This document shows positions 13,534 to 42,300 of a stretch of DNA of 58,250 nucleotides, in pieces (the stretch's first letter is position 1; each line of letters starts with the position of its first letter). Under the pieces are notes generated by a model, which had not been told where the DNA came from, ran no database searches, and saw only the letters and a list, made by a program, of their open reading frames with translations. The translations under genes were made by a program, and so were the position numbers. Source of the DNA: Balneolaceae bacterium (GTDB taxonomy: Bacteria; Bacteroidota; Rhodothermia; Balneolales; Cyclonatronaceae). The DNA is taken from assembly GCA_007694035.1 (NCBI GenBank), contig RECM01000139.1:1-58250 (forward strand). Reading direction: 5' to 3'.

Positions 13534-13543
13534 AAAATCAATG

Positions 13544-16703: not shown

Positions 16704-16705
16704 GA

Positions 16706-17503: not shown

Positions 17504-17673
17504 GATATATAAATTATGTTAGAACATAACAAAGTATGTACCTAATTCTGAACATGTATCAAAGTTTGTATTGGAACCGCTTTTCTAAACCATAATCTGA
17601 TATTATGAAAAATATAACAGTAATCTTGTAATGTTCAATTCACTTTTTTACTTTGATAAAACAAACCATATGT
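17504..17673. promoter_or_regulatory. Divergent promoter region between the two sugar operons
   Basis: An AT-rich stretch carries promoters for both operons. On the plus strand TTACTTTG (17648-17655) lies about 20 bases from an upstream CTTG and about 18 before the GntR ATG. On the minus strand TACTTTG (complement of 17530-17536) lies about 27 bases before the SDR start. Both boxes share TACTTTG, one base shorter than TAnnTTTG. Half-sites TGAACAT are scattered at 17549-17556 and, inverted, at 17630-17637, the latter between the -33 and -7 elements of the GntR promoter. Confidence 0.55.
17514..17529. promoter_or_regulatory. Perfect palindrome TTATGTTAGAACATAA, probable GntR operator
   Basis: Two 7-base arms flank a 2-base centre. 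The site overlaps the expected transcription start of the leftward operon, just downstream of its -7 box, which is where a repressor would bind. Its core AACAT recurs in the half-sites near the GntR promoter. Assignment to the adjacent regulator is inference. Confidence 0.6.
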
Positions 17674-18438
17674 ATGAACATTCCAACAAGCAAATCAACA
17701 AAGATCGGACCGCTGGATCATGACAGCTATATTCCGCTCTACATTCAGGCTGAAACCATACTCAGGGAGCTAATCCAGGAGCAGGAATATCAGGACGGAA
17801 AGTTGCTTCCCGATGAAATGTCGCTGGCCGGTATGATGGGTATTTCCAGAAATACGGTACGTCAGGCCATGGACCGCATTGTGAATGATGGCCTCCTTAG
17901 CAGAAAGAAAGGTGTGGGGACCCGTGTTTCGGTTCGTACTGTTACCACCGACCTGGATCACTGGCACAGTTTTACCCACGAAATGACCGGGCAGGGCATT
18001 CCCATAGAGAACCTGAAAACAACTGTGGAATGGGAACTGGCGCCAGATTCCGTTGTGACTTTTCTTGGCATACCGGAAAACCGGCCGGTACTCAAGGTCG
18101 ATCGTCTGCGCAGGCTCGACCGTGCCGGCCTTGTATACTTCAGCTCCTGGCTGCATCCACGGCTTAACCTTAGTGGAACCGAAGATTTCGCGAACATACC
18201 TCTGTATGATATTCTGGAAAAAGAGTGCAGAACTGTCCCCGAGTTATCGGAAGAAGAGATTCGTGCGAGGGGTGCAGAAACCGCCGAAGCAAAACTGCTG
18301 AAGATTCGCCCCGGTGCTCATGTGCTGCTGCGTACCCGCAGGGTATATGATGAAGCAAACAGGCCCATCGAGTACAACACGGGTGTGTACGATGCAGAAC
18401 TGTTCAGTTACAGGATCAAAATAAAACGACCACGTTAA
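17674..18438 (+). CDS. GntR/HutC-family transcriptional regulator of the sugar island
   Basis: An N-terminal winged helix (PLYIQAETILRELIQEQ, LLPDEMSLAGMMGISRNTVRQAMDRIVNDGLLSRKKGVGTRV) is followed by a UTRA effector domain (PENRPVLKVDRLRRLD, IRARGAETAEAKLL, VLLRTRRVYDEANRPIEYN). HutC-type regulators usually repress until a small sugar or sugar phosphate binds the UTRA domain. The start was set at ATG 17674 (MNIPTSKSTK) instead of the track's TTG at 17653. Its stop overlaps the next start (TAATG), so regulator and importer are co-translated and probably autoregulated through the palindrome upstream. Confidence 0.9.
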   Translation: MNIPTSKSTKIGPLDHDSYIPLYIQAETILRELIQEQEYQDGKLLPDEMSLAGMMGISRNTVRQAMDRIVNDGLLSRKKGVGTRVSVRTVTTDLDHWHSFTHEMTGQGIPIENLKTTVEWELAPDSVVTFLGIPENRPVLKVDRLRRLDRAGLVYFSSWLHPRLNLSGTEDFANIPLYDILEKECRTVPELSEEEIRARGAETAEAKLLKIRPGAHVLLRTRRVYDEANRPIEYNTGVYDAELFSYRIKIKRPR

Positions 18439-21483: not shown

Positions 21484-24420
21484 ATGAGAACAAACATACT
21501 CATCATATTACTGTCTCTGATCCCGATACTGGCCTTTGCACAGACCAGTGGTCGTATAACAGGCACAATTACCGAACGTGCTACCGGTGAACCTCTGGTA
21601 GGTGTTAACATTACCATAGATGGTACATTTATCGGGGCTGCGGCCGACGAGGATGGCTATTACAACATCATACAGGTACCATCAGGCACGTATACGGTGG
21701 TTTTCTCCATGATCGGCTTTCAACAGGTACGGGTTACGGATGTGGTGGTTCGTACGGGGCTTACCACAACCATCGATATGCAGATGGATGAGCAGTTAAC
21801 CGAAGCGGATCAGGATATAGTAGTGACCGCCGAAAGGCCGGTTATTCAACAGGATATTACCTACAGTATACAATATATAGGATCTGTAAGGCTTGAAAAT
21901 CTGCCGGTTACCGATGCACGTGAAGGCCTTTTCGTTCAGGCCGGGGTGTTCCTCGATCCCATTCCCGTTGCCGGTGGCCTGGGGTCGGCCGGGCGGGGAG
22001 AAAAGCGGTTCTCGGTACGGGGAGGGCGCCAGGATGAAGTGAAATGGTTTATTGACGGTGCCCGTACGGCAACTCTTGTAGCAGGGCGGGCCGACTGGGG
22101 TGGTTCATTCACTAACCTGAATATGGACATCATTGAGGAAATACAGCTGATGACGGGTGGATTTACGGCTGAATACGGCGATGCACAGTCGGGTATCGTG
22201 AATGTAATAACCCGAAGGGGGGGCAGCCGGCTAAGCGGTTCGTTCAATTATATGTACGGCCTGCCCGGACAGAAACACTTCGGTGAATACCTGTATGACC
22301 GGAATACGCAGCGCGAGTTTCTTGACAATACGCTGCCCGATGGCACACTCAACCCGAACTGGTGGACACCCGAACGTCAGCGGCAGGTGTATGACTACCG
22401 GGATGTGGCCGACCACAGCCTGAATGCCAGCCTGGGTGGGCCCCTGTTCAGTATCGGGTCAAAAGAGGTGCGTTTTTTCGCAGCTACCCAGATCAAACAG
22501 CATGCGTATGCTTTGCCGAGGCCACGCGATTCACGCAATTCGGAAAACTACTTTGCAAATATTTCTACTGCCGGCAGGGGCTGGACAATGAGGCTCAACC
22601 TCATGGGCGACAGGGACGCACATTCAACCCTTCAGGAAAACGGAGATTTTACGTCACAGGCCAAATACTACCGCGGGTGGGGTACCCTGTTGTATAATTA
22701 TACCTATAACGCATCGCTTCATTTTACACGGGTTCTTGCCGATAACCTGTTTCTGAGTTCCAAACTGAGTTATTACCGGGTGGAATTCAGGGAAAAACCG
22801 GGCGATTACACCCAGCTTGGCAGAAGTGCAAATCCGACTCTGTTCGGGTTTCAGCGCTACGACGGCTATGAAGTAGAGCCATTTGATCAGTTCGCACCTA
22901 TTTTGAAAAACAATATTGGTACGGGCGATGTATCCCTCACAATGGCGCTCAACTGGCAGGCCGACCGTAACAACCAGATACAAACAGGATTTGATTTCCG
23001 CTACCATTCATACAATGAAAGGTACAAATATCGCCTTTCGTCCTATTCAATGGATGAACGGTTGTGGCTGAACCGTGGCCTGCACGAAAATTACAACCCC
23101 ATTCAGTTCGCTGGTTACATCCAGAACAAGATGGAATTCGACAGTATGATCCTGAATTTCGGGGTACGCTACGACTATTTTAATCCGAACAGAGACTGGT
23201 TTGTACCCACAAATCTGTTCAATACCTCGATTAATCCCGACTATGATTCCGCTCTGGATCCGCAGAATACCCAGGTTGACAGCAACGGAAATGTGAAGTA
23301 CAGCTTTGAAAATGCAGCCGGTAAACCACGTGAACCACACAGGTCTTACCATATGATCAGTCCGAGGTTCGGGGTTTCTTTTCCAATGTCGGTGAATACC
23401 CTGCTGCATTTCAATTACGGTCATTTCTACCAGATGCCGGCCATCGATCAGATGTTTGAATTTACGTACTTCCGACCGGTCTATATAACAGACCAGCTGG
23501 CAGCTGAACTTGTTCTGGCCGATGCCGAAGGCCGTGCACCCCGGCATATTCCATCTACCGACGGTGATCCGGAACGCGTGGTCGAGTATACAAGGGAACC
23601 TCTCAAACCCATGTTAACCATACAGTTCGAAGTGGGGATTAAACACAATTTTTATGATTTTGCCGTACTGGACGTGACCGCTTTTTATAAGGATGTTTTC
23701 GATCAGACCGAAGAAAGGGTCGGTTTGTTTGACCGGTCGATACGGGGCTATGATCCCTGGCGCGACCGAATTAACCCGAACCAGAGTTATGCGTCTTTCC
23801 TGTCGGGCGATTACGGAGATTCCAGGGGATTTGAAATCAGTCTGGCCAGCCTGTTCAGCCGCCGGTTCAATTTCGATATCAATTACAGTTTCAGCCGTTC
23901 AACAGCTGGCAGGGCAAGTCCACGTATTGTTACCATTCAGGAAGATGGCAGTACCACATTTGAGTGGGATTCCGACGTGAACAAGAGAATTCCGGTTGAG
24001 CGAAGTTTCAGCCGTCCCCACATACTCAGAACCACGGTATCCTACACAGATTACGGGTTCAATACCAGTTTGATGTACCGGTTTATTAGTGGTCAGGCAT
24101 TTACGTATCTGCAGCCTGCCGATCCCGCAGATACCTACAACAATTATCGGTATCCGGGAAATCACAATGTTGACGCACGAATAGAGAAAACCTTCAACCT
24201 GGGCCGTCTGCACCATATTTCGGCCTACATGCTTGTAACCAATGTGTTGAATATCCGGAATTTGCGTGCCTATGGCGATATCCTGTTCGATGCGGATGCA
24301 ACCAGGTTGTATGTCGAAGAGGGTGTGGTTTCGAGCATTGACGGGGCCGGATACGATATGAGCTGGCAAAATTACTTTGAGCCGCGGCGTTTTTATTTCG
24401 GAGTTAAATATGGTTTCTGA
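21484..24420 (+). CDS. TonB-dependent receptor with an N-terminal carboxypeptidase-like domain
   Basis: Outer-membrane active transporter. Signal peptide MRTNILIILLSLIPILAFAQ is followed by a CarboxypepD_reg-like domain (GRITGTITERATGEPLVGVNITIDGT...GYYNIIQVPSGTYTV). A plug domain comes next (RFSVRGGRQDEVKWFIDGAR, MTGGFTAEYGDAQSGIVNVITRRG), then a long beta-barrel ending in aromatic FYFGVKYGF. The start is ATG 21484; the track's 21463 start lies inside the permease. The barrel resembles the SusC-like receptors of Ignavibacteria and Balneolota that occur without SusD. Here it is followed by an FnIII-T9SS protein and a PorV-like protein. Substrate presumably the island's glycan. Confidence 0.9.
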   Translation: MRTNILIILLSLIPILAFAQTSGRITGTITERATGEPLVGVNITIDGTFIGAAADEDGYYNIIQVPSGTYTVVFSMIGFQQVRVTDVVVRTGLTTTIDMQMDEQLTEADQDIVVTAERPVIQQDITYSIQYIGSVRLENLPVTDAREGLFVQAGVFLDPIPVAGGLGSAGRGEKRFSVRGGRQDEVKWFIDGARTATLVAGRADWGGSFTNLNMDIIEEIQLMTGGFTAEYGDAQSGIVNVITRRGGSRLSGSFNYMYGLPGQKHFGEYLYDRNTQREFLDNTLPDGTLNPNWWTPERQRQVYDYRDVADHSLNASLGGPLFSIGSKEVRFFAATQIKQHAYALPRPRDSRNSENYFANISTAGRGWTMRLNLMGDRDAHSTLQENGDFTSQAKYYRGWGTLLYNYTYNASLHFTRVLADNLFLSSKLSYYRVEFREKPGDYTQLGRSANPTLFGFQRYDGYEVEPFDQFAPILKNNIGTGDVSLTMALNWQADRNNQIQTGFDFRYHSYNERYKYRLSSYSMDERLWLNRGLHENYNPIQFAGYIQNKMEFDSMILNFGVRYDYFNPNRDWFVPTNLFNTSINPDYDSALDPQNTQVDSNGNVKYSFENAAGKPREPHRSYHMISPRFGVSFPMSVNTLLHFNYGHFYQMPAIDQMFEFTYFRPVYITDQLAAELVLADAEGRAPRHIPSTDGDPERVVEYTREPLKPMLTIQFEVGIKHNFYDFAVLDVTAFYKDVFDQTEERVGLFDRSIRGYDPWRDRINPNQSYASFLSGDYGDSRGFEISLASLFSRRFNFDINYSFSRSTAGRASPRIVTIQEDGSTTFEWDSDVNKRIPVERSFSRPHILRTTVSYTDYGFNTSLMYRFISGQAFTYLQPADPADTYNNYRYPGNHNVDARIEKTFNLGRLHHISAYMLVTNVLNIRNLRAYGDILFDADATRLYVEEGVVSSIDGAGYDMSWQNYFEPRRFYFGVKYGF

Positions 24421-24424
24421 ACAG

Positions 24425-26242
24425 ATGAAATACATACCATTTTTGCTGTTTCTGGCATATCTGCCGGCAGTTGCAACCGGGCAAAACCGTGTGGCCGAAT
24501 TTGAAATTCATGCGAGGGGCAACCTGTGGGAGACCGTACGTGATGATGGCCGCCTGGGAGCGCCTGATCCGAATAACCGTTTTCAGAACTTTCCAAGCCT
24601 CGACTGGCCGGGCGGCCCCACTTTCATGGATAAAGATGATCAGCGCCATTACCGCGTATCAGCCGGGTTGTGGATAGGAGGACGCCGCGCCGATAATTCG
24701 ATATTCTTTGTTGAAAACGGCCCGTTTCAACTGGTGAATGTGCAGTCGGTTCAGCCGATGCAGAAAATAACCAATTACATCGAAGACCCCGGCTTCAGAC
24801 CGGAAGAGGCTGAAGAGACCATCATTGCCGATTTTACGACCACCGAAAACCTCAGGGTCGTTCGCAAGAGCAGGGTGTGGAGCTTCAGGGGGTACACGAA
24901 TATGATCCTGTATGAATATGAAATTGAAAATTCCGGGTCACAGAATCTGACCGATGTCTTTGTTGGTTTTCCGAACCTGCTGCGGCCCAGCTACCAGGAT
25001 TTTGTAGTACATAATGGATGGGGCGACGATTTTAACCGTGTCGACGATCAGGTCCGGTTCGACCCGGATCGCAGGCTGATGTACACATGGGATGATACCC
25101 CCAGCTTCGACCTGCCATCAGATGTTGGTAATTATCTGGCATCAGCGAATGAGCTCAGAACAACCGGCTACGCGGGTTATGCAATCGTGGATTACGATCC
25201 TGTATCCGATGGCCGTCAGCAGCCTGCCGCAGCGCTTTATGCTCAATACCTGAATAATGAACGCTTCTTTACCGGTCTGAATACGCCGGTTAACGATATG
25301 TACAATCTGCTGAACGGAACGGATACAAGCCTGCAGGCTGATGATGATGAAAGGCTCGCACCATTTATGCTGATGTCGGTAGGGCCATACAACCTGGGTC
25401 CGGGACAAAAGGTGCGTATTGTAGTAGCTGAAGCTGTAAATGGCATCCCCCAGCAGCGGGCTCTGCTCGGTTTGTCGGCACAGCCACAATTACCGGCCGG
25501 TCTCGACTCCCTGCGCAGAACCATCGACCGCGCTGCCGCACTTGCAATGGCTGATTTCAGGGTCGCAGCGGTACCCCCTCCCGTTCCGGATATTACGATA
25601 ATACCGTCGCCATCTGACCAGTCTGTAACCATATACTGGACTCCAATTGAACAGTCATGGGTCAATCCACTTGATCCGTCCCGGACCATACGGGATTACC
25701 GGGTTCTTCGAAGCAGCCGGTCATTTATCGGTCCTTATGAAGTTCTGGCTACCATACGACCGACCCGGCCCATAGATATTACCCGTTACTACGATGAGTT
25801 GAACAACCGCTGGGTTTTCCGGGACGAGTCGGTGAGCCTTGGTGCAGAATACTATTACGCGGTAACATCCGTGGATGTCAGAAATGTTGAAAGCTGGATG
25901 ACCAACCGCAACGAGGAAGGAATCCGCGCTGCAAGGGATCCGGCCGCCGACGCGGCAAATGTGGGCGTTTTCCCCAACCCGTTCAGGCTCACATCCGGTT
26001 TCCCCGGCACAGGTCAGCAGAACGATATCATATTTACCAACCTGCCTGTAAAATGTACGATTCGTATTTATACCAGCAGCGGTGAGCTCGTGAAGGAAAT
26101 ACGCAGGGATAATCCGAATTCGGGTGAGGAAGCATGGAATCAGCTTTCCGATGCGCGACAGCGACCGGCACCGGGCATCTATTTCTGGACGGTAAGCTCC
26201 GATGTGGGCACGGCAACAGGAACGTTATTGATAATCAAATGA
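24425..26242 (+). CDS. Secreted FnIII-containing T9SS protein, candidate surface glycan-binding partner of the receptor
   Basis: Signal peptide MKYIPFLLFLAYLPAVATGQ (ATG 24425; an in-frame ATG at 24410 overlaps the receptor stop). The N-terminal ~370 residues contain GLWIGGRRADNS and a beta-rich domain of a large uncharacterised family seen beside such receptors. A fibronectin type III-like domain follows (SDQSVTIYWTPIEQ to YYYAVTSVDVRN). The C-terminus is a T9SS-type sorting domain (VGVFPNPFRLTSGF to TGTLLIIK). It is placed between receptor and PorV-like genes, with spacings of 4 bases and a 4-base overlap. A SusD-like docking role is inference. Confidence 0.7.
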   Translation: MKYIPFLLFLAYLPAVATGQNRVAEFEIHARGNLWETVRDDGRLGAPDPNNRFQNFPSLDWPGGPTFMDKDDQRHYRVSAGLWIGGRRADNSIFFVENGPFQLVNVQSVQPMQKITNYIEDPGFRPEEAEETIIADFTTTENLRVVRKSRVWSFRGYTNMILYEYEIENSGSQNLTDVFVGFPNLLRPSYQDFVVHNGWGDDFNRVDDQVRFDPDRRLMYTWDDTPSFDLPSDVGNYLASANELRTTGYAGYAIVDYDPVSDGRQQPAAALYAQYLNNERFFTGLNTPVNDMYNLLNGTDTSLQADDDERLAPFMLMSVGPYNLGPGQKVRIVVAEAVNGIPQQRALLGLSAQPQLPAGLDSLRRTIDRAAALAMADFRVAAVPPPVPDITIIPSPSDQSVTIYWTPIEQSWVNPLDPSRTIRDYRVLRSSRSFIGPYEVLATIRPTRPIDITRYYDELNNRWVFRDESVSLGAEYYYAVTSVDVRNVESWMTNRNEEGIRAARDPAADAANVGVFPNPFRLTSGFPGTGQQNDIIFTNLPVKCTIRIYTSSGELVKEIRRDNPNSGEEAWNQLSDARQRPAPGIYFWTVSSDVGTATGTLLIIK

Positions 26243-27198
26243 AATCAAAACCTATCATACTGGCGATTTTCTGTGCAGGCATGATATCGCTGATCCCGTT
26301 GGCCGGCCATGCCCAATACGATTACGGTTTTGAGTTCAGCAAAGCCGGCTCGGGCGGTCTGCAATTCCTCAAGATAGCCGTTGGCCCCAGAGAAACCGCG
26401 ATGGGCGAGGCGGGTACGGCCATTTCAAACAACATCAACTCGGTATTCTGGAATACATCGGGCCTGGCATTTATCGACAAAACCCAGTTTATGGTCAGCC
26501 ATACCAACTGGCTGGCCGGATCCACCCATAATGCAGCAGCTGTGGCGTTCCCGATCAGGGGGATCGTTATCGGTGTATCTGTTATTTCGCTGAATATTCC
26601 GTCGTTCGAAGAAACCACTGTTTTTGAACCCGATGGTACCGGACGGATGGTCAATGCCGGCGATTTGCTATTCGGTCTGGCCATTGCCCGCCGTTTTACC
26701 AATCAGCTGGTGATTGGCGGCCAGCTCAAATACGCATATGAAACCCTTGACGATTATCAGTTTGGAAACCTGTTGCTCGATATTGGCGCGGGGTACGATA
26801 CCGGCTTCCGGGATTTGCGATTCGGATTTTCGCTGCAGCATTTCGGTCCTGATATGAAAATTGCCGATCAGACATTTCGTACACCGCTGCTGTTCAGGAT
26901 CGGTGCATCCGATATTCTGGTAACGACCGACAACATGAACCTGCTGGCTACAGCAGAACTGGTGCATCCCACCGACAATGTGGAATGGGTTAATACGGGT
27001 CTTGAGCTCACCATCATGTCGACCCTTGCCCTGCGCGGCGGGTACCGGTTCAATTCCGATATATCTGATTTTACCATGGGTTTCGGTTTAAAAGGCAGGC
27101 ACCGGTCGCTGGGCGCGCTGAGTGTCGACTATGCCTACGTGCCATCCGTAACCGTATTCAAACCGGTACATCAATTCAGTGTGAGTATAAGTCTTTAA
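26239..27198 (+). CDS. PorV/PorQ-like outer-membrane beta-barrel protein
   Basis: Signal peptide followed by a FadL-like barrel with the family opening AGSGGLQFLKIAVGPRETAMGEAGTAISNNINSVFWNTSGLAF. This motif is shared with PorV (the T9SS shuttle protein) and the UPF0164 group. The start was set to ATG 26239, which overlaps the previous stop (ATGA), rather than the track's 26134, which lies inside the FnIII gene. A dedicated PorV paralogue next to a T9SS substrate suggests it delivers or anchors that neighbour at the surface, an inference from context. Confidence 0.78.
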   Translation: MKSKPIILAIFCAGMISLIPLAGHAQYDYGFEFSKAGSGGLQFLKIAVGPRETAMGEAGTAISNNINSVFWNTSGLAFIDKTQFMVSHTNWLAGSTHNAAAVAFPIRGIVIGVSVISLNIPSFEETTVFEPDGTGRMVNAGDLLFGLAIARRFTNQLVIGGQLKYAYETLDDYQFGNLLLDIGAGYDTGFRDLRFGFSLQHFGPDMKIADQTFRTPLLFRIGASDILVTTDNMNLLATAELVHPTDNVEWVNTGLELTIMSTLALRGGYRFNSDISDFTMGFGLKGRHRSLGALSVDYAYVPSVTVFKPVHQFSVSISL

Positions 27199-27202
27199 AA
27201 AA

Positions 27203-30200
27203 ATGAAGCAATTTATCCTTCTAATAATATGTCTGTTCATGCTGCCTGCAGCCGGATCAAGCCAGTATATTGATCTGTTACCCGATGGAACAGTACCGGT
27301 CTGGATGGTAAGCGGACCATATGAACAGCCGCACATCGGTTTTGGAACACCCGCAGATTTTGATCCTGTCGATGAAGCCACCGTGAAACCGGTATGGGAT
27401 GATAACTGGTTTCCGCAGCAGGTCTCCAATAATGGTTTTCTTGATTTCAACGACATAATCGGATGGAAAGTGAATACCAGCGAGCCCGAAAAGATTTGGA
27501 GCGCGAGGGCTGCGTATGCTTCGGCCAACATCATAAGCGACAAAGCGGGGGAAGCCACATTATGGTTTGGAGGTAATTCACGCATCAAAATTCTGCTGAA
27601 TGGTGAACTGGTGTTTATGTCCGATTCGGACGAAAATGCTGTTGTTGACGCCCGGTCGGTAACAGTGCAACTCAAAGAGGGCAGCAATCTGTTGCTCATA
27701 CGCACTACCCAGTCGCATATGAACTTCAATATTGTGATTTTCGAAGAACTGAGTTATGATTGGGGATTTTTTGCCAGGCTTGAGTCGGATTCACAGCATC
27801 TGAAGGTGGTTCATCCGGCATCACGTGCTCTGAACGCAGAACTTATTTCCACATTCTTTTACCGTGAGCTCAATGGCAAACTGCATCAACGTCACGATGT
27901 ATATGTGACTAATACACAGCAGGGCCAATCCGGCTCGGTTACCCTTGATATGAAGGGCAATCACATTAATCTGGATCTGCCGGAGGTTCCGATGGGGGTG
28001 TCGCGTCACGAGTTGTGGGTACCGGAAACGGACAGTGATCAAAGGCTTGGTTTAATGATTCGTGTGGGGGATACCAGCAGAAGGGTGGGTGTAACCCTTT
28101 ACCCACGACCTAAATATGAACTCCATCTGATGTTTCTAACACACACCGATATCGGATATACCCATACTCAGCCCGTAGTGCGCGAAATTCATATGAAAAT
28201 TCTGGATGATGTAGTTGCCCTGTGCGAATCCGATGAAACCTTTAAATGGACTATAGAGACGATCTGGTCGTTGCAGGCCTACTATGAAGGGCGAACAAGC
28301 AATCAGTTCCTGAAATTAATTGAACTGATCCGTTCAGGCAGGGTAGCAGTTTCACCATTCTACACCAATCCCTTCACCGGCATGGTCAGTGCCGAAGAGT
28401 TGATCCGCTCTTTCGACAGGGCAAATTACTTTGCAGAAACCTATCAGATCACCTATGATGCGGCTGTATATAACGATGTGCCCGGGCAAACCTGGTTCCT
28501 GCCCCAGCTGTTGCGCGATCAGGGGGTTTCCTTTCTTGTAAACGGCCTGAATGAGGTGTATGGTGACTATAAACTGCAAAAAGCCATACCTAAAGTGATG
28601 TACTGGCAGGGCGACGATGGTACGCAGATTCTGCACTATAGAACCGAATCGTATAACGAAGCAATGGCCTACGGTTTGGAACGCGGCAACAGTGCAATTG
28701 AACACCGTATGTGGCAGCGAATTGCAAAACTTGAAGCGGCAGGATATCCCACGAACAGGATTCTGCTGAATTCTGCGTTTGGCGATAATCTTGGAATCCC
28801 GATGCGCCAGTGGGAAGCGCATAAACGCTGGAACCATGAATATGCCTGGCCAACATTCATACCTGCTACGGTGAGCTCCTTTGCACAGGCACTCGGTGAC
28901 TTATCCGGCAAAGAGATACCGGTAGTTACCGGCGACGCCATATCTGACTGGGATATCTATTTCCAGGGCGAACCGGACCGTATGCAGCGTTACCGGCAAA
29001 CTCAGCATAACCTTTTTGCCGCGGAAAACCTGGCTGTGATTTCCGCGATGCAGCATCCCGACATCAGTACCATGAAAGAGTCGATCGACCGGGCTTACGA
29101 TATGCAGCTGCAGTACAGCGGGCATGGCAGCGGACTGGAATACGGGTATGGGTCGGATCTTGAAAATGAGCGTGCTTTCGATTACCGGGAAGCCTATGTG
29201 AGTGAGGCTTTTATTGAAACATTACAGGCGCTGGAAAGGTCGGCTTACCGAACTATGAACAGGCAGGCTGCTCTGGAAGGGGAATTCGCCGTCGTGCTGA
29301 ATCCCCATGAAGTGAATGTGGATTTTATAGCAGAACTTGGTCTGAAACCTGCATGGGGAGAACACTATGGTGTTGAAGATGCCATTTCGGGTAACTGTAT
29401 TCCTTCAGTAGTAAGGGACCATATACTCAGATTTCTGGCTGAAGATATACCTGCGCTGGGGTGGAAGAAATTCAGGCTGGTTCCGGCCTGCGAAACCTCA
29501 AAATCCACAGAGCTTAAGGCGGGCCCGGATTATATCGAGAATGGTGAGTATCGCATCAAAGCCGACATCGCTGTTGGCACAATTGTTTCGGTATTTAACA
29601 AGAAGCTGAATAAGGAGCTTTGGTCGCAGGAAAACGGTTTCGCTTCACCAATGCTGCAGCAGGGCGGGGCCGATAAACCCTTCACACGGCTGGTAACCGG
29701 AGGTGCCCGGGTCCAGATTACAGATGATTCGCCGGTGGCCCTGCACATGATATTGAACCGTGATGATAGCCTGTTTCCATCAACACGGTTTACCCTGCAT
29801 GATGGTGGTTCGTCCCTCGACATTGAAGTGGCAATGGACCTTAACATGCTGGAGTCTGTTGAGCAGCCGCATGCGTACTCCATATCATTTCCGGGACTGA
29901 CCGACAGGAAACACTTATATGCAGAGACAGTTGGCGGCTTCCTGGGCGGTATGTGTGATCGAATGCCGGGTCTGGGTTCCAGTGCATTCTCCATACGCGG
30001 GGTACTGAGTGTTGAAAATGGTGCACAGACACTGAGCATTGCATCACCCGAAACGCGAATTGTATTTGTTGATGAGCAAAGCATTCATTTTAACATAGCG
30101 AATAATTTTCCCGGGAATTGGAACCGGCGTGAGCCTAACGACCGGGTCATTACATCAACTTTTTCGGTCATGTTAGAAAATCAGCCTTTTCATCATGGCA

Positions 30201-30556
30201 GGGCGGCACGGTTTGGAAGGTTAACTGCCATCAAACCGGTTGTTCTGAGAGGTTGGTTTACGCACGATCCCGATTCATTCGGGGCTATGGATTTTAAAAG
30301 TGATAACATTGTATTGCAGGCTTTGCGGCCATTGGGCAGCTCCATACATGATGGTATTCTGATCCGCCTCAGAAACACGCATACCGAAAACGAAGAAACA
30401 GTCTCTGTAACAGCTCCCTGGTTAGATGGGGGTACAATAAGCCGGTCTGATTTCGCTGGGAAACATGAAATGAAACTGGACTCAGCAGGCGGTAAGATAG
30501 AAATCAGACTCAAACCAAACGAAACCGCTACACTAAAATGGATACCCGAACCCTAA
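27203..30556 (+). CDS. Secreted GH38-like glycoside hydrolase (alpha-mannosidase-related)
   Basis: Signal peptide MKQFILLIICLFMLPAAGSSQ; 1117 residues. After an N-terminal beta-sandwich region (GEATLWFGGNSRIKILLNGELVF), the GH38-type seven-stranded domain begins near residue 310 with LTHTDIGYTHTQPVVREI (metal-binding His-x-Asp). The probable nucleophile Asp lies in YNDVPGQTWFLPQLL near residue 423. C-terminal beta domains follow (VVLNPHEVNVDF, GWKKFRLV). The divergent motifs (HTDIGYT, NDVPG) place it in a poorly tested branch, so alpha-mannosidase activity should not be assumed. It lacks a T9SS tail and is probably periplasmic. It may trim the glycan before inner-membrane import. Confidence 0.72.
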   Translation: MKQFILLIICLFMLPAAGSSQYIDLLPDGTVPVWMVSGPYEQPHIGFGTPADFDPVDEATVKPVWDDNWFPQQVSNNGFLDFNDIIGWKVNTSEPEKIWSARAAYASANIISDKAGEATLWFGGNSRIKILLNGELVFMSDSDENAVVDARSVTVQLKEGSNLLLIRTTQSHMNFNIVIFEELSYDWGFFARLESDSQHLKVVHPASRALNAELISTFFYRELNGKLHQRHDVYVTNTQQGQSGSVTLDMKGNHINLDLPEVPMGVSRHELWVPETDSDQRLGLMIRVGDTSRRVGVTLYPRPKYELHLMFLTHTDIGYTHTQPVVREIHMKILDDVVALCESDETFKWTIETIWSLQAYYEGRTSNQFLKLIELIRSGRVAVSPFYTNPFTGMVSAEELIRSFDRANYFAETYQITYDAAVYNDVPGQTWFLPQLLRDQGVSFLVNGLNEVYGDYKLQKAIPKVMYWQGDDGTQILHYRTESYNEAMAYGLERGNSAIEHRMWQRIAKLEAAGYPTNRILLNSAFGDNLGIPMRQWEAHKRWNHEYAWPTFIPATVSSFAQALGDLSGKEIPVVTGDAISDWDIYFQGEPDRMQRYRQTQHNLFAAENLAVISAMQHPDISTMKESIDRAYDMQLQYSGHGSGLEYGYGSDLENERAFDYREAYVSEAFIETLQALERSAYRTMNRQAALEGEFAVVLNPHEVNVDFIAELGLKPAWGEHYGVEDAISGNCIPSVVRDHILRFLAEDIPALGWKKFRLVPACETSKSTELKAGPDYIENGEYRIKADIAVGTIVSVFNKKLNKELWSQENGFASPMLQQGGADKPFTRLVTGGARVQITDDSPVALHMILNRDDSLFPSTRFTLHDGGSSLDIEVAMDLNMLESVEQPHAYSISFPGLTDRKHLYAETVGGFLGGMCDRMPGLGSSAFSIRGVLSVENGAQTLSIASPETRIVFVDEQSIHFNIANNFPGNWNRREPNDRVITSTFSVMLENQPFHHGRAARFGRLTAIKPVVLRGWFTHDPDSFGAMDFKSDNIVLQALRPLGSSIHDGILIRLRNTHTENEETVSVTAPWLDGGTISRSDFAGKHEMKLDSAGGKIEIRLKPNETATLKWIPEP

Positions 30557-30572
30557 ACAAACACATGATACC

Positions 30573-31424
30573 ATGAAAACTAAATCTATACGAACACTGA
30601 TACCAGTAATGATCATTACTGCAATAATGGTGAGTTGCATCATTGATGAAGTTGATCAGCCAGAGAGCGTCGAAGCCGGGGCGTCATTCCTGATCACACT
30701 TGAAGCCAGAACCACCAACTCTGATGCCGCGGCGAAGTACGGGGTTGTTGGCATATTTCTGCCCATTGAATTTGAGGTCGATTCCGTGCGTTTTTCAGGC
30801 ACCATGGGCGGCGGAAGTTTTTATGAACTCATGAACGACAGCACCTCAAAGTACCCCGGGGAAGGCGGTATCAAAACAGGATGGTCTGATGTTCTGGCAG
30901 ATCTGTTTGGTGAGCAGGAAGGCTATACCTGGAGAGTATTCGAAACTGAAGAACCCCATTCCACGGGCGATACAGAAGAACATTCCCATACGATCGAGAT
31001 TTTCGCCAGGGCTGGAATGACTCAGGGTGAGTACGGGCTCGGTTACGTGATTACCGAATCCGCTCTCGATTTTACCGACGATAGCATGTGGGGCGACAGC
31101 TTCGACAACATGATCACCGTGGTTGAAGCTACATCGATCGAACGCCATGATGAAGTGGCTTCATCGTTTACCCTGAATCAAAACTATCCGAATCCGTTCA
31201 ACCCTACTACAGTCATCAGCTATACGCTTGCAGAACACAGTGATGTGGCTCTTGAAATTATCGATATCAACGGCCGGGTTGTGAATACCCTGGTAAATGG
31301 GCCGCAGATGGCCGGTAAGTATGATGTGACAGCAAATATGTCGCAACTGCCCAGTGCTGTCTACATGTACCGTCTTACGGTGAATGGGCAGAGTCAGGTC
31401 AGGAAAATGACCCTTTTAAAATAA
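30573..31424 (+). CDS. DUF4961-like protein with both a lipobox and a T9SS sorting domain
   Basis: The N-terminus has a lipoprotein-type signal with Cys at residue 22 (IMVSCIIDE). The middle reads ASFLITLEARTTNSDAAAKYGVVGIFLP, resembling the DUF4961 domain found in Bacteroidota polysaccharide loci. The C-terminus is a type A sorting domain (FTLNQNYPNPFNPTTVISY, VYMYRLTVNGQSQVRKMTLLK). Having both signals is unusual, because T9SS cargo is normally cut by signal peptidase I. A glycan-binding surface role is plausible from context, but the function is unknown. Confidence 0.65.
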   Translation: MKTKSIRTLIPVMIITAIMVSCIIDEVDQPESVEAGASFLITLEARTTNSDAAAKYGVVGIFLPIEFEVDSVRFSGTMGGGSFYELMNDSTSKYPGEGGIKTGWSDVLADLFGEQEGYTWRVFETEEPHSTGDTEEHSHTIEIFARAGMTQGEYGLGYVITESALDFTDDSMWGDSFDNMITVVEATSIERHDEVASSFTLNQNYPNPFNPTTVISYTLAEHSDVALEIIDINGRVVNTLVNGPQMAGKYDVTANMSQLPSAVYMYRLTVNGQSQVRKMTLLK

Positions 31425-31478: not shown

Positions 31479-32531
31479 ATGATAAAAGTAATAAATGTAG
31501 CGGATCTTGGGCCTTTGTTTACGGAAAACGATCATCAGATGGTCGGGCAGGACGGTGCTTACAGTATCCCCACCGATAAAGGACTGCTCTTTTTTTTCGG
31601 CGATACCATAATCGGCAAGCGCACTCCCAAAGTTAGCCTGTGGTACCCCGATGGCAAGCCCATTGAAAACCGCCCTATGGAGCGGTTCGGTGAAATTATC
31701 GACATGCCGGTAAATTGCGGGCTCCTTTTCAGAAGTACGAATGATTTTGAATACATACTGAATGAGGAGGGTAAAATTCGTGAACTGGTTCCTTCATTTC
31801 CCCATGAAACACCCGACAAATGGCGGGTTTGGTGTATGCACGGTATACAGATTGGCAAAAAACTCTACCTGTCGTACATAAAGGTGAAGATGCTCGAAGA
31901 AGGAATGGCCCCGGTCAATTTTGAAATTCACGGGTCGGGTATTGCCGTGGGCGATACAGACACATGGAAGTTTACACGCATTCTTGACAACGGGCACCGT
32001 TCAATATGGACGGCCGATCAACCCATGTTCTCATCAGCCATTCTCGATGGCAACGACGGATGGATCTACCTCTATGGTGTTCGGAATGAATCGGGTAATC
32101 AAAAATGCTACCTGAGCAGGGTAAAGCCTGATGATATTGAACAACCGGAGAAGTACAGATATTGGGATGGATCGGGCTGGAACAGGGATATCAGGTCGGT
32201 ACAACCGGTAATGTTCGATATGCCCAATGAAATGTCGGTATCGTGGAATATTTATCTCGGCTGTTGGCTGGCAGTCTACAGTGAGGGCACCGGCGGGCGC
32301 ATTGTAGCATGTACCTCGCAAAGACCTGAAGGGCCATGGAGCAACCCTGTGCTATTGCACACAGTTGAAATGCCGGAACATGATCTGCCATATCCACGGC
32401 TTATTTATGCGGCGAAAGAGCATCCGGTGTTGTCGAAGAATAATGGCAGCATATTATGGATTACCTACATAGAATTTGAAGAATATTTTCCTCATCTGCT
32501 CGAAATAAAAATCGAAAAATCAACTACTTAA
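31479..32531 (+). CDS. DUF4185-family beta-propeller protein, possible glycosidase
   Basis: A 350-residue protein without a signal peptide. GQDGAYSIPTDKGLLFFFGDTIIG at the N-terminus and repeated propeller strands (YLSYIKVKML, GWIYLYGVRN, CWLAVYSEGTGGRIVACTS, GPWSNPVLL) match DUF4185. Some DUF4185 proteins are now known as endo-D-arabinanases (GH183), with an Asp-containing FxxGD motif near the N-terminus like the FFFGDT here. It is the first gene after the internal hairpin and the first of the apparently cytoplasmic enzymes. The substrate is unknown, and a role on imported oligosaccharides is inference. Confidence 0.68.
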   Translation: MIKVINVADLGPLFTENDHQMVGQDGAYSIPTDKGLLFFFGDTIIGKRTPKVSLWYPDGKPIENRPMERFGEIIDMPVNCGLLFRSTNDFEYILNEEGKIRELVPSFPHETPDKWRVWCMHGIQIGKKLYLSYIKVKMLEEGMAPVNFEIHGSGIAVGDTDTWKFTRILDNGHRSIWTADQPMFSSAILDGNDGWIYLYGVRNESGNQKCYLSRVKPDDIEQPEKYRYWDGSGWNRDIRSVQPVMFDMPNEMSVSWNIYLGCWLAVYSEGTGGRIVACTSQRPEGPWSNPVLLHTVEMPEHDLPYPRLIYAAKEHPVLSKNNGSILWITYIEFEEYFPHLLEIKIEKSTT

Positions 32532-32545
32532 TCGTTTAATTTTAT

Positions 32546-34612
32546 ATGATTCCAACTTCAGCCCGCCTGGGCAGTGATGTGCTTGTTCACCGGCACGGCG
32601 ATATTTTCAACCCGCCGGGGCTCACTAATTTTATCGGTACCACACAAATCGATCTTGAACCGGTGGCCATCCGGTCAGTCAACTTTCCGCCATTTGGCAG
32701 TGGCGATGCCGTTACGGCAGGGCTGTTTCTGAACGACCGTTTTTGGGCGTCCTACGGGGTTCCTGTACACATTCAGTGGTTCCCCGACCGGATTGTGCGC
32801 AGTACTGAGGCCGACGGACTGCGTGTTGAAACCATAACTACCATACCGTTTCACAGTAATGCGGTACTCATTAAAATCGCGATAAAAAATCTGAGCGGAA
32901 CCCGCCGCGATGTGCCGGTGCGACTGGGTATAAGCGGCTATGTTACAAAAGCGGTAAGGCCATGGAATGAGCCAACCGCTCCTGCCGAAGGTGATAACAT
33001 CGTCGAAACCGATAACAGCCGACCGGCCATAATCCATAAAGCGGCAAACAGCAGCGCTGTTAGGATACAGGGACTGGCAGATGCCGGGAACGCATCTGCC
33101 AATCCGGTGCAATTGAAAACGGTACTGGGGCTTGAGGCCGGCGAGGAGAAAATTTTCTGGTATCTGAATGTGACCGAAGATACCACTGAAAAAGCGTTCA
33201 GCACGTTCGATGAACTGGCCGCGAACCCCCAAAGGGTACAGGATGAAGTACGCGCAGGCTGGGATCGTGAAATTTGTGACATTTTTACCCCAGGTAATGC
33301 TTCATACTCCGGGTCGATGCCCGTACTTGAAACCGATGAAGCCGATATCCTCCGAATGTACCATATGGCCATTCTTGGTGTTGTCTATTTCAGGAGAGAC
33401 AATCCTGCATCGGTATACGGCCGCGCTTACGATACCCTCATGCCCAAATACTGGCAGACGGTTACTTTCATCTGGGATTATGCCCTGAGCGGACTAACAC
33501 ACGCGCTTCTCGATCCGGGAGTAATGACCAGGTATATGGAGACCTGGATGAACATGGACATCCACAAACATTTCGGTACGGAATATCTGACGGGCAAACC
33601 GGTCGGCCCCTGGTACTCAGTAAACGACTTTGCGATGACATCGCTCATCAAAGATTATCTGCGTTGGAGCGGTGATTTGAAATGGCTGGGAAAAGGAATT
33701 AAAACGGAGTCTGGTGAACAGCCGGTTTCCGACTTTCTGGTAAGGTTCTCAGAAAATTACAAGCAATTTCTCACCCCCGCCGGGCTGGCCGACTATGGCG
33801 GGCTAAACAATCTGCTTGAATGTGTTAGCACCTACATCCACGAAGTGGCCAGTTTGAATGCTGCCAATGTATTTAATCTGCGCTATACCTCCGAAGTGCT
33901 CGACCTGCTGGGGGAAAAAGAAAAAGCGGCTGCCCACAGGGCCGAAGCCGGAGCGCTGGTGGGGCAGGTTAATAAATTGTATGCCGATGGCAAGGGGTTC
34001 TGGCATACCCGTTTCCCCGGCAATAAATTGGTCGAAGTTCGCCATATCTACGATTTCATTACCATTCTGAATACCATTCCCGACGACCTCACGGCCAAAC
34101 AGAAAGAAGAAATGACCCGCTTTTTTGTTGAGGAGATGCAGACCCCTACCTGGTTGCGGGCATTATCGCCCAAAGATGCCGATGCCATGTTCAGCGTCCG
34201 GCCAGATCATCAGTGGAATGGTGCCTACCCGGCATGGCCGGCCCAGAGTGTTACCGGGCTGTACAGGATCGGGCAGCATGAACTGGCATTTCAATGGCTG
34301 AAAGGCCTTGCAAAAACAGCAAATCAGGGTCCGTACGGGCAGGCACACTTTACGGAAGAGGTGCTGAAACCCGAAAACGGCGGTGCGATCAAAGCATCAC
34401 CGGATATACCATGGATCAACGACTGGATCTGCTCAAGCAACGGCAGCTGGACCAACATTATCATCGAATCCATATTCGGGGTAAAAGCCGGGTTGGGTGG
34501 AATTACAGCTGAACCCCGGTTCGGCGCATTCGACAAAAACGCGGTTCTGCGTGGGCTCCGTTACCAGGGTAAGTTGTATGATGTAACCCGGAAAGGGATC
34601 AGTAAACAATGA
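32546..34612 (+). CDS. (alpha/alpha)6-barrel glycoside hydrolase-like protein
   Basis: 688 residues, no signal peptide. The N-terminal ~250 residues look like a beta-sandwich. The remainder is a helical toroid with aromatic and acidic motifs of clan GH-G/GH-L type enzymes: FIWDYALSGLTHALLDPG, GPWYSVNDFAMTSLIKDYLRWSGD, DYGGLNNLLECVSTYIHEVASLNA, MFSVRPDHQWNGAYPAWPAQSV, and SPDIPWINDWICSSNGSWTNIIIESIFGV near the C-terminus. The general layout recalls GH63, GH37 and MGH1-like families, but I cannot fix the family. It overlaps the esterase gene by 4 bases. Probably cleaves an imported oligosaccharide. Confidence 0.65.
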   Translation: MIPTSARLGSDVLVHRHGDIFNPPGLTNFIGTTQIDLEPVAIRSVNFPPFGSGDAVTAGLFLNDRFWASYGVPVHIQWFPDRIVRSTEADGLRVETITTIPFHSNAVLIKIAIKNLSGTRRDVPVRLGISGYVTKAVRPWNEPTAPAEGDNIVETDNSRPAIIHKAANSSAVRIQGLADAGNASANPVQLKTVLGLEAGEEKIFWYLNVTEDTTEKAFSTFDELAANPQRVQDEVRAGWDREICDIFTPGNASYSGSMPVLETDEADILRMYHMAILGVVYFRRDNPASVYGRAYDTLMPKYWQTVTFIWDYALSGLTHALLDPGVMTRYMETWMNMDIHKHFGTEYLTGKPVGPWYSVNDFAMTSLIKDYLRWSGDLKWLGKGIKTESGEQPVSDFLVRFSENYKQFLTPAGLADYGGLNNLLECVSTYIHEVASLNAANVFNLRYTSEVLDLLGEKEKAAAHRAEAGALVGQVNKLYADGKGFWHTRFPGNKLVEVRHIYDFITILNTIPDDLTAKQKEEMTRFFVEEMQTPTWLRALSPKDADAMFSVRPDHQWNGAYPAWPAQSVTGLYRIGQHELAFQWLKGLAKTANQGPYGQAHFTEEVLKPENGGAIKASPDIPWINDWICSSNGSWTNIIIESIFGVKAGLGGITAEPRFGAFDKNAVLRGLRYQGKLYDVTRKGISKQ

Positions 34613-35736
34613 TTGTAAGCATCAAATGGCCTGTTAATGCGGGGGAAACCCCGCCTGTTCTGCTAGGCGATTTTACACAGTGGGAACCTGTTGAGGGTAC
34701 TGCCGTGAATGGCCGGCTGGAGTGGCAATTTGATGTGGAATACGATGCACGCCTGGAATACTGTTTTATGACCGGTGATAATCGGCTCATACCCGATCCC
34801 GCTAATGAAAACAGGGTGATGAACGGACTTGGTGCCATGTCTGAACTTGTAATGCCGGGTTATGAGTATCATCCGGTTTTTGAACCGTTCCGGCACGGTG
34901 TGAAAAGTTCCACTGACCATCTGAATAAGATCAGCATCACAAGCAGGCATCTGGGATATATAAAAGAAGTCTGGATTGTGGAAGCAGGCAGGGATGCGTC
35001 ACTATTGCCAGGCGGACAAAACCCGGGAATAAGTCTATTATCGGGGAAATTGACCGGCCGGATGTTTGAAAAAAAGGGTACCGGGTTTATAGATAACCCG
35101 GGAAAATCAGGCATAGCCCCGTTTCTTCTGGTTTTTCAGGACGGGTTGGATTACCTGGAGTTCGCGCATGCCGAAACGGTTCTTCATTATTTGTTTAACA
35201 ACAAACTGATACCGCCAACAGTGGCCCTGTTTGTTAACCCGCCAAACCGCCATGCCGGGAAAAAACCCGACAGGATGACCGAATACGGCATGAACCCGTT
35301 ATACGCGGCCTTCATAGCCGAGGAACTGATTCCGCGGTTCAGCAACATTACCAATCGTGCAATCATTGGTGCCTCCTATGGTGGCTTGTGTGCCATACAT
35401 ACCGCCATGCTCTATCCCGGTTTATTTTCAGCCGCCTACAGTCAGTCGGGTTATGTGGGATATAACAGCGACGCTCTGTTTGAACTGGTCGGTCGTTCAG
35501 ATAAATCGGTAAGCATATACACGGATATTGGCACCTGGGAACGCTCGGTGGGCAGGTCGTTTCTGGATAACCGTGAACTCGACTTTTTAGCTGCGAACCG
35601 GCGATTCCGTGATATGATGCAGCAATATGATATCCCCCATACCTATTGTGAACACCATGAAGGGCACACCTGGGGGTACTGGCGGAACGGGTTGGTAAGA
35701 ATGCTGCCGGCAATCATATACGGAGACAGATTATGA
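34609..35736 (+). CDS. Esterase with an N-terminal E-set (CBM48-like) domain
   Basis: Residues 1-~90 resemble a CBM48/E-set module (PPVLLGDFTQWEPVEG...LEYCFMTGDNRLIPDPAN). The alpha/beta-hydrolase domain follows as in enterochelin-esterase/CE1-type proteins: PFLLVFQDGLDYLEFA, VALFVNPPNRHAGKKPDRMTEYG, the nucleophile in IIGASYGGLCAIHTAMLYPG, Asp in YTDIGTWE, and His in HHEGHTWGYWRNGL. It has no signal peptide and overlaps both neighbours by 4 bases. In the island it would remove acyl groups (acetyl or aromatic) from imported glycans in the cytoplasm. The acyl specificity is not readable. Confidence 0.78.
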   Translation: MIVSIKWPVNAGETPPVLLGDFTQWEPVEGTAVNGRLEWQFDVEYDARLEYCFMTGDNRLIPDPANENRVMNGLGAMSELVMPGYEYHPVFEPFRHGVKSSTDHLNKISITSRHLGYIKEVWIVEAGRDASLLPGGQNPGISLLSGKLTGRMFEKKGTGFIDNPGKSGIAPFLLVFQDGLDYLEFAHAETVLHYLFNNKLIPPTVALFVNPPNRHAGKKPDRMTEYGMNPLYAAFIAEELIPRFSNITNRAIIGASYGGLCAIHTAMLYPGLFSAAYSQSGYVGYNSDALFELVGRSDKSVSIYTDIGTWERSVGRSFLDNRELDFLAANRRFRDMMQQYDIPHTYCEHHEGHTWGYWRNGLVRMLPAIIYGDRL

Positions 35737-36647
35737 GAATGGGAATTGATCTGGGCGGTACCAACCTGAAACTGGGATTGTTTGATAACGATGGTGGGCC
35801 CCATTCATTCAGAAGCACTCCGGTTTCAGGCCTGGGCGGTGATAAAGGCCTGTGGAATGCCATATGCAATTATATTGAAGGGTTCAGAAAAGACGTAGAA
35901 TTAACATCTGCCGGGCTCTCAATTAAAGGCCTGGTGAGCGCAGACGGAGTGCTGTGCGACGATATAGGCCTGGCCGGTCTCTTTCAGGGTATGAACCTTA
36001 AACAGGACCTTGAGGCGCGTTTAGGTGTTCCCGTTACCGTAGCAAATGATGCGCGCTCGTATGGATGGGGCGAATATTGCTTCGGTGCCGGCCGGGGCTG
36101 CACTATCATGGTCTGTATAACACTTGGTACCGGCATCGGCTGCTCCATTGTGGCGAACGGCAAACCATGGATGGGCAAAGATCCGACCAGCGGCATCCTC
36201 GGTGGTCACATCACCCTCGACAGAAACGGTCCGGAATGCCTTTGTGGCAATCGTGGATGTTTTGAAGGATACTGCTCGGCTACCGCGTTCAGGTCCAGAA
36301 TCCTTGGGCAGCACCCCGGTCTGATGGATTCTGAGGATGTAATCGTCGCTTTTTTTGAACACTACCGGAACGATCCGGCTACGTATCAGAACGTACTGCA
36401 CGAGTGGACTGACGACCTTGCCCTTGGTATTGTATCACTCGTGCATACCACGGGGGGTGATCTGGTGGTTATCGGTGGCGGATTAACCGGCAGCAGCGAC
36501 CTGTTTATGCCGCGGCTCAGGGAAATTGTGCACAAGCGTGCCTGGACCTGGCCCCGTGGAACCGTAAACATTGAAACATCGAAGCTTGGGAACATGGCGG
36601 CTGCGCTCGGTGCCGCTTTTTTAAATGATATTGACAACCATCTATAG
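35733..36647 (+). CDS. ROK-family sugar kinase
   Basis: Cytoplasmic ATP-dependent hexose kinase of the ROK type, 304 residues, with no N-terminal helix-turn-helix and so a kinase rather than a repressor. MGIDLGGTNLKLGLF is the phosphate-1 motif, VANDARSYGWGE contains the catalytic Asp, ITLGTGIGCSIV is phosphate-2, and CLCGNRGCFEGYCS is the ROK zinc signature. Next to the ManA-like isomerase it suggests mannose or a related hexose is phosphorylated and isomerised to fructose-6-phosphate. It overlaps the esterase stop (ATGA). Confidence 0.9.
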   Translation: MRMGIDLGGTNLKLGLFDNDGGPHSFRSTPVSGLGGDKGLWNAICNYIEGFRKDVELTSAGLSIKGLVSADGVLCDDIGLAGLFQGMNLKQDLEARLGVPVTVANDARSYGWGEYCFGAGRGCTIMVCITLGTGIGCSIVANGKPWMGKDPTSGILGGHITLDRNGPECLCGNRGCFEGYCSATAFRSRILGQHPGLMDSEDVIVAFFEHYRNDPATYQNVLHEWTDDLALGIVSLVHTTGGDLVVIGGGLTGSSDLFMPRLREIVHKRAWTWPRGTVNIETSKLGNMAAALGAAFLNDIDNHL

Positions 36648-36662
36648 CAATTATTATTTCAC

Positions 36663-41197: not shown

Positions 41198-42300
41198 TGG
41201 CAACTATAGAATTCGACAATGTCTCAAAATGGTATCGGGAAGCAGAGCCGGTTGTTAAAAATGTCTCTTTTCACATACGTGATAAAGAGTTCATGGTGAT
41301 AGTTGGACCATCGGGATGCGGCAAATCGACCATGCTCCGAATGATTGCCGGCCTTGAAGACATCAGTCTCGGCGAACTGCGAATAGACGGCGTACGCGTT
41401 AATGAAAAAGCGCCAAAAGACCGCGATATCGCCATGGTTTTTCAAAATTATGCCCTTTATCCTCATATGACGGTTTACGAAAATATGGCCTTCGGTCTAA
41501 AGCTGCGGAAGATGCCCAAAACGGAAATCCGCAACCGGGTGTTTGAGGCCGGTAATATTCTTGGCCTGGCCGATTATATGGACAGGAAACCCAAGGAATT
41601 GTCGGGTGGGCAGCGGCAGCGTGTGGCCGTTGGCCGGGCAATAGTTCGCGATCCGAAAGTTTTCCTGTTTGATGAGCCTCTAAGCAATCTGGATGCTAAG
41701 ATGCGGGTACAGACAAGAGCTGAAATTTCGGCCCTGCACCGTAAGCTGCAGGCTACCATGGTTTATGTGACCCACGATCAGATTGAGGCCATGACTATGG
41801 GCGACCGAATTGTTGTTATGGATTCAGGGAACATCAGCCAGATAGATACACCGCTGAACTTGTATCACCACCCGGTAAATATTTTCGTTGCCGGTTTTAT
41901 TGGCAGCCCTTCAATGAATTTTATCGAGGGAAACCTTAGCAGCGAATCAGGGCAATTCAGCGCGGAGAACCTCACTGGCAGTATATTGCCCCGATCGTCA
42001 GTGAAATCGGTTTCTCCGGTATCCAACCAGGGGGCTGTAACACTTGGTGTGAGGGCTGAGCATATGGAGATTACATCCCCGGGAACCAACGGCAGCATAA
42101 CCGGGGTGGTCGAGATCAGCGAGCCACTTGGCAACGAAACGTATACCTATGTTAAATCCGGGGGTAAAATTATCGTTGCCCGAACCTACGGCAGCCTCAT
42201 TCCCGAAGCTGGATCAACTATTGCACTGTTGCCTGATCCCGGAAAGGTTCACATCTTCGATCGGGAGACAGGGCAAAACCTGGTGAAACAACCTGTATAA
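41197..42300 (+). CDS. ABC transporter ATPase (UgpC/MsmX type), last gene of the sugar operon
   Basis: A CUT1 importer ATPase of 367 residues. Walker A GPSGCGKST, Q-loop MVFQNYALYPHMTVYENMAFGL, signature LSGGQRQRVAVGRAIVRDP, Walker B FLFDEPLSNLDA and H-loop VYVTHDQIEAMTM are all visible, followed by a C-terminal TOBE/MOP regulatory domain (GVRAEHMEI). It should energise the permeases encoded about 20 kb upstream at the head of the same operon. It overlaps the rhamnosidase by one base (TAATG). UgpC-type ATPases often serve several importers. Confidence 0.93.
   Translation: MATIEFDNVSKWYREAEPVVKNVSFHIRDKEFMVIVGPSGCGKSTMLRMIAGLEDISLGELRIDGVRVNEKAPKDRDIAMVFQNYALYPHMTVYENMAFGLKLRKMPKTEIRNRVFEAGNILGLADYMDRKPKELSGGQRQRVAVGRAIVRDPKVFLFDEPLSNLDAKMRVQTRAEISALHRKLQATMVYVTHDQIEAMTMGDRIVVMDSGNISQIDTPLNLYHHPVNIFVAGFIGSPSMNFIEGNLSSESGQFSAENLTGSILPRSSVKSVSPVSNQGAVTLGVRAEHMEITSPGTNGSITGVVEISEPLGNETYTYVKSGGKIIVARTYGSLIPEAGSTIALLPDPGKVHIFDRETGQNLVKQPV

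Follow-up and report, generated by a model that had tools for sequence, protein, structure and literature searches.

Here we describe a module of three adjacent genes, encoding a TonB-dependent receptor, a surface protein and a PorV-like barrel, in a 58,250-nt stretch of DNA (the window) from a Balneolaceae bacterium (assembly GCA_007694035.1, contig RECM01000139.1; 4.0 Mb in 279 contigs, 90% complete). The surface protein, which we label FN, joins a fibronectin type III (FnIII) domain to a C-terminal domain (CTD) of the type IX secretion system (T9SS), and we denote the receptor–FN–PorV-like genes the triad. We find that the triad is a genuine module, which recurs and is inherited as one unit. 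We consider it somewhat probable that it forms an outer-membrane importer in which the role of SusD, as the receptor's surface partner, is taken by a barrel-anchored T9SS product and not by a lipoprotein.

The receptor and FN genes are separated by a 4-base gap, and the FN and PorV-like genes overlap by 4 bases (ATGA). These spacings and the positions of the three genes are exactly those of the original prediction, an earlier reading of the same DNA, which had also described a carboxypeptidase-like domain in the receptor and a WIGG-type domain and an FnIII domain in the surface protein. The receptor carries CarboxypepD_reg (PF13715, 4.4e-18) and Plug (PF07715, 2.4e-10) domains by Pfam; FN contains a GLWIGG segment, and its FnIII domain is supported by a match of the family profile to Protein Data Bank entry 3mpc (E 0.0014) and by Foldseek FnIII matches on the model. 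The barrel belongs to the PorV/PorQ family (NF033709, 168.5 bits, cut-off 90) and lies below the equivalog cut-offs for PorV (NF033710, 51.1 versus 250 bits), PorQ and PorV2.

To define the recurrence of this arrangement, the neighbourhoods of PorV-family genes were read in all frames in nine assemblies: the source genome, six complete relatives and two named metagenome-assembled genomes (MAGs). The relatives' PorV loci were chosen mostly above 80 bits, weaker matches and the complete genome G134 being mostly left out, and the survey is not a census. Among 79 distinct PorV/PorQ-family loci, 38 are triads, 6 are receptor–PorV, 7 PorU–PorV, 6 other FN–PorV and 22 other arrangements, in keeping with the predicted co-occurrence of the three families beyond chance. 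The source genome, with 12 PorV-family matches (the weakest at 23 bits), about 95 T9SS tails and 34 plug domains, holds five full triads (contigs C159, C263, C108, C273 and C67) and one receptor–PorV pair (C15). A receptor lies within two upstream positions of 6 of its 12 PorV-family genes, where about 1% is expected per gene; by a rough estimate, six receptor-linked PorVs would arise by chance with P ~1e-9. Five of the six receptor–PorV loci have an FN-type gene slightly upstream, and the sixth (C15) starts near a contig end. At the end of C70 lie an FN-type gene and the beginning of a gene that resembles the receptor's upstream neighbour in receptor–PorV loci, which suggests that C15 and C70 are a single split locus. 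At L080, L089, L093, L095 and L096, a conserved protein of 500–564 amino acids with a lipobox-like cysteine is encoded between FN-type genes and the receptor; its L080 copy has no Pfam match.

The module extends well beyond these genomes. An Ignavibacteriales MAG (locus L060) carries the same operon, with regulator, MalEFG-type importer, receptor, an FN 54% identical to that of the window, barrel and GH38 gene; the original prediction had pointed to similar triads beside sugar genes in Ignavibacteria-like genomes. Across the phylum, a profile of the triad tail finds matches at 1e-12 in 124 of the 247 good-quality genomes. Receptor, FN and barrel were found together at all 20 strong tail matches sampled in other families, one of them in the order receptor–barrel–FN. 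Weak matches in eight distant genomes were triads in seven of nine cases, the other two having no barrel in the stretch read. Bacteroidia-like single matches were considered as PorU–PorV pairs, a possibility that was ruled out: the PorU model was unmatched in the fragments, and longer regions proved to be full triads. A genome may carry up to 11 divergent copies. Every one of 125 genomes with a triad tail encodes the SprA translocon (1518.9 bits in the source genome), and the 57 genomes without SprA all lack a triad tail (hypergeometric P 8e-22, ignoring relatedness).

Other arrangements of the same families were also observed. L103 holds a tandem FN–PorV–FN–PorV behind a single receptor, the barrel sequences being identical over the part compared, and a separate recurrent unit (L027, L110, L112, L116 and L120) consists of a T9SS-tail protein of roughly 400–545 amino acids and two tandem PorV-family genes, with no receptor.

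The components of the triad share a common history. The tree of the PorV family splits by gene context, with 5 label changes compared with 36 after shuffling, and 37 of the 38 triad barrels cluster with a single tandem copy in a group of their own, separate from PorU-linked PorVs (the branch is not starred). The window barrel, whose gene neighbour is FN, also lies apart from PorU-linked PorVs and is a private paralogue, as had been proposed. Pairwise distances among receptors, FN bodies, FN tails and barrels are in agreement with one another (r 0.75–0.90), most closely for receptor and FN body (r 0.90); among copies within one genome the agreement is r 0.79–0.85, and permuted nulls average near zero.

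The FN tail offers the main indication of how the barrel may act. With hmmscan, the window FN CTD scores 28.6 bits against the PorZ model, 20 against PorU and 22.3 against the generic TIGR04183 model (cut-off 23), which reaches 26.2 bits in a six-frame search (same cut-off). Among 23 proteins of the long FN class, NCBIfam finds the PorZ model in eight, PorU in five and generic type A in one; triad tails other than that of the window mostly fall short of TIGR04183. Ordinary tails at the examined loci read PNPFNPTT...VYD.LG...RKM.LIK, whereas triad tails read VVPNPY...F.NLP..CTIRIYT..GELV..I.H...WDL...GKFAIIK, and the tails cluster by gene context (5 label changes versus 47 shuffled, over few columns). 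Type B models did not account for the window proteins, neither the TIGR04131 tail nor the TIGR03519 barrel being matched at E <= 1. The FN tail appears to differ from that of ordinary cargo and to resemble the tails of PorZ and PorU. PorU does not cleave the CTD of PorZ, and PorV and PorQ keep PorU and PorZ at the cell surface (PMC8545088). On the basis of this tail type, we propose that FN is retained by its barrel rather than shuttled in the ordinary way; as the scores are low, retention is a supported lead and not a proof. A T9SS tail had been predicted correctly; its PorZ/PorU type refines the original prediction, which had started from the shuttling of T9SS cargo by PorV.

An alternative is that the PorV-like barrel is a dedicated shuttle only, carrying FN from SprA to the sortase and being recycled, with FN lipid-linked or free, tied to the receptor functionally but with no anchor in the barrel. 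PorV handles ordinary type A cargo in this manner (PMC12618676 and PMC10994853), and the long FN class keeps the near-C-terminal lysine typical of type A tails. However, a private barrel is not required for ordinary type A cargo, and in these genomes none lies beside the genes for such cargo; tails of the triad type belong to proteins that are retained, and the one-to-one ratio of barrel genes and FN genes points to stoichiometric use. We judge a pure shuttle unlikely.

Comparison of the barrel with PorV is consistent with a CTD-binding function. The triad barrel profile matches Flavobacterium johnsoniae PorV (6h3i_F) at 1.6e-24, colinearly across residues 6–223, and matches TodX and related transporters weakly (5e-4). 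CTDs bind the extracellular loops of PorV, whose loop residues Asn87 and Phe115 are reported to meet the CTD lysine (PMC10994853); both residues lie inside the colinearly aligned region. No conserved stretch was found when the triad PorVs were aligned as a collection. The Ignavibacteriales FnIII–CTD–PorV segment was modelled as a single chain through a TAG stop (AlphaFold, 5 rows); in this low-confidence model the barrel has 14 strands, and the best single-barrel match of the model is PorV.

In the barrel-anchored importer that we favour, FN would be exported through SprA. The PorV-like barrel, encoded directly downstream, would recognize the PorZ/PorU-type CTD of FN, dock at SprA as PorV does and pull FN out; FN would then not be handed to the sortase, and the barrel would keep it permanently as its membrane anchor. 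The N-terminal domain and FnIII domain of FN would be placed above the receptor or at its side and would capture a glycan, which the receptor would pass to the periplasm, with the MalEFG-type importer and glycosidases completing uptake.

The body of FN bears on this role. FN proteins fall into a short class of roughly 600–830 amino acids and a long class of roughly 1000–1340 amino acids, and no Pfam family exceeds its cut-off in the window FN or in the displayed members of either class. The start of the window FN has no lipobox, and of the 33 triad FN starts covered by a crude scan, one has a lipobox-like motif. In a Foldseek search with a model whose mean predicted local distance difference test score (pLDDT) is 40, the N-terminal domain of the window FN matches almost exclusively the beta-supersandwich domains of proteins such as GH94, GH65 and GH116 (E 7.6e-6), and it may tentatively be taken as a beta-supersandwich like the N-terminal domain of GH94 phosphorylases. 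This fold match to glycoside phosphorylases and hydrolases, which have the domain in common with carbohydrate-active enzymes, would suit a different reading, in which FN is a barrel-held surface enzyme or adhesin whose product the receptor imports, with no physical lid. The match, however, covers the non-catalytic supersandwich only, neither Pfam nor NCBIfam recognizes a catalytic domain in either FN class, and the closest distance agreement is that between receptor and FN body; we give this reading only a small chance.

The genomic context of the window connects the triad with sugar uptake (Table 1). The triad shares an operon with a MalEFG-type importer: the MalG-type gene ends 4 bases 5′ of the receptor gene, and the GH38-type gene starts after a 4-base gap behind the barrel gene, so that the triad is embedded in a longer series of closely spaced genes that share its strand. 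The GH38, alpha-L-rhamnosidase, ROK kinase, ManA-like and MalK-type ATPase genes suggest a glycan containing mannose and rhamnose. On the minus strand, positions 12691–17503 hold SDR-like, enolase-superfamily, metallo-beta-lactamase-fold and FAA hydrolase genes, which may form a deoxysugar-acid pathway for the rhamnosidase locus.

Table 1 Features of the triad and its surrounding locus in the window.
Feature	Position	Strand	Basis or content
GntR-type regulator	17653..18438	+	Open frame, read from sequence; also first gene of the L060 arrangement
MalE/MalF/MalG-type ABC importer	18438-19781, 19778-20668, 20661-21479	+	PF01547 1.9e-31; PF00528 5e-17, 8e-21
TonB-dependent receptor, 978 aa	21484..24420	+	Signal peptide, CarboxypepD_reg, plug, barrel
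FN, 605 aa	24425..26242	+	Signal peptide without lipobox, N-terminal domain, FnIII, CTD
FN N-terminal domain with GLWIGG segment	24482..25564	+	Alignments; tentative beta-supersandwich (Foldseek, low-confidence model)
FN FnIII domain	25577..25939	+	3mpc; Foldseek fibronectin matches
FN C-terminal domain, PorZ/PorU-type	25952..26239	+	PorZ, PorU and TIGR04183 model bits; triad-type clustering
PorV-like barrel, 319 aa, private paralogue	26239..27198	+	NF033709; PorV 6h3i_F profile match; tree
GH38-type mannosidase, signal-peptide-like start	27203..30556	+	PF01074 1.2e-21
DUF4961 protein with ordinary type A T9SS tail	30573..31424	+	PF16328, PF18962; TIGR04183 39.4 bits
Remaining sugar locus	31479..42300	+	DUF4185, 688-aa protein without Pfam match, putative esterase, ROK kinase, ManA-like, alpha-L-rhamnosidase, UgpC/MalK-type ATPase

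Similar neighbours recur at other loci. Genes of the MalE and MalF/G types follow the triads at C263 and L074; behind other triads lie genes for regulators of the GntR or LacI type, GHL10 genes or SSF genes (neighbours at L074, L069, L088, L103 and L104 were identified from sequence only). In distant families (L150–L156), the triad has a larger FN (1339–1705 amino acids), with one weak tail match per genome and two in G270; the L154 and L155 triads adjoin genes read from sequence as greA- and HIT-like, and L151–L153 lie near a gene likewise read as extracytoplasmic function (ECF) sigma-like or anti-sigma-like. Barrel and FN could instead serve secretion or assembly, with the receptor as part of the machine (for example in TonB-driven release or assembly) and no import. 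The likeness of the FN tail and barrel to parts of the attachment complex fits such a machine, as do the distant single-copy triads, whose neighbours are carB/greA-like or sigma-factor genes and not sugar genes. The divergent copies within one genome, however, are more easily reconciled with a range of substrates than with a single machine, and several have ABC importers, glycosidases and regulators of sugar type as neighbours, leaving this explanation a slighter chance still. PorV is a member of the FadL superfamily, and the TodX-type matches might indicate a FadL-like channel for a hydrophobic ligand with incidental T9SS neighbours, but this is very improbable given that PorV is by far the best match, that a gene with the FN tail lies directly upstream in nearly all cases and that no sampled genome has a triad tail but lacks SprA.

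Several points nevertheless weigh against a barrel-anchored importer. Co-inheritance indicates a unit and not, by itself, contact, and the likeness of the CTD to PorZ and PorU comes at low bit scores. Evidence on the ligand is confined to gene neighbours and the tentative N-terminal fold match; the link to sugar genes holds at some loci only, and the single-copy triads of distant families adjoin unrelated genes. The AlphaFold model of the window FN, built with two homologues (mean pLDDT 40, predicted template modelling score (pTM) 0.44), is too poor to judge interfaces, and the Ignavibacteriales FnIII–CTD–PorV model (pLDDT 52.6, pTM 0.37) is of no use for docking.

The triad resembles several described systems in part. 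As in SusC–SusD, a CarboxypepD_reg-containing TonB-dependent receptor gene adjoins the gene for a large surface protein in a glycan locus with enzymes. Unlike in SusC–SusD, the receptor scores 66.6 bits against the SusC/RagA model TIGR04056, over its N-terminal part only and far short of the cut-off of 368; no SusD lies beside it, the contig of the window having no PF07980 match; the partner is T9SS cargo without a lipobox; and a PorV-like barrel is added. The triad thus departs from SusCD in receptor type, in adjacent SusD and in lipoprotein partner. The source genome has six SusD matches (PF07980) on five other contigs (C84, C255, C236, C62 and C252), indicating that triads exist beside SusCD and do not take its place in this genome; the originally proposed 'SusCD replacement' is plausible.

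As in PorU–PorV and PorZ–PorQ, a PorV-family barrel is paired with a CTD resembling those of PorZ and PorU, and in the triad the hold of one on the other is predicted. PorU and PorV are adjacent genes in the source genome and the six complete relatives. In contrast to these pairs, the triad is multi-copy and receptor-linked, its barrels form their own group and no sortase or propeller domain is recognized. Type B CTD cargo and a downstream PorP/SprF-like barrel form stoichiometric pairs in which the shuttle is thought to fix the cargo's final place (PMC12618676 and PMC9143113); in published complex predictions, type B tails favour their cognate barrels over non-cognate ones (PMC12618676). The triad likewise has a cargo gene followed by its own barrel gene, but its CTD is PorZ/PorU/type A-like, its barrel is of the PorV family and not PorP/SprF, and a receptor is included. 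In BamG–BamH, a FadL-family barrel holds a surface protein through extracellular loops; unlike the triad, BamH is classed with surface lipoproteins, and the complex serves barrel assembly and not nutrient uptake (PMC12578637). We found no description of the triad in a library of open-licence papers, which leaves room for a paper elsewhere.

It is conceivable, if rather less than an even prospect, that triads represent a third class of T9SS cargo and carrier beside type A (with a shared PorV) and type B (with PorP/SprF): proteins with PorZ/PorU-like tails and private PorV paralogues, permanently anchored as partners of TonB receptors, many per genome, and forming a general lipoprotein-free counterpart of SusCD. 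In the published view all type A CTDs are recognized by PorV (PMC12618676), a statement that would then be qualified, provided that triad tails count as type A. The claim can be tested directly in cultured relatives with several triads. If true, many Bacteroidota would build receptor complexes by secretion and not by lipoprotein export, and many PorV/PorQ-family genes that now bear a family name only would gain a function.

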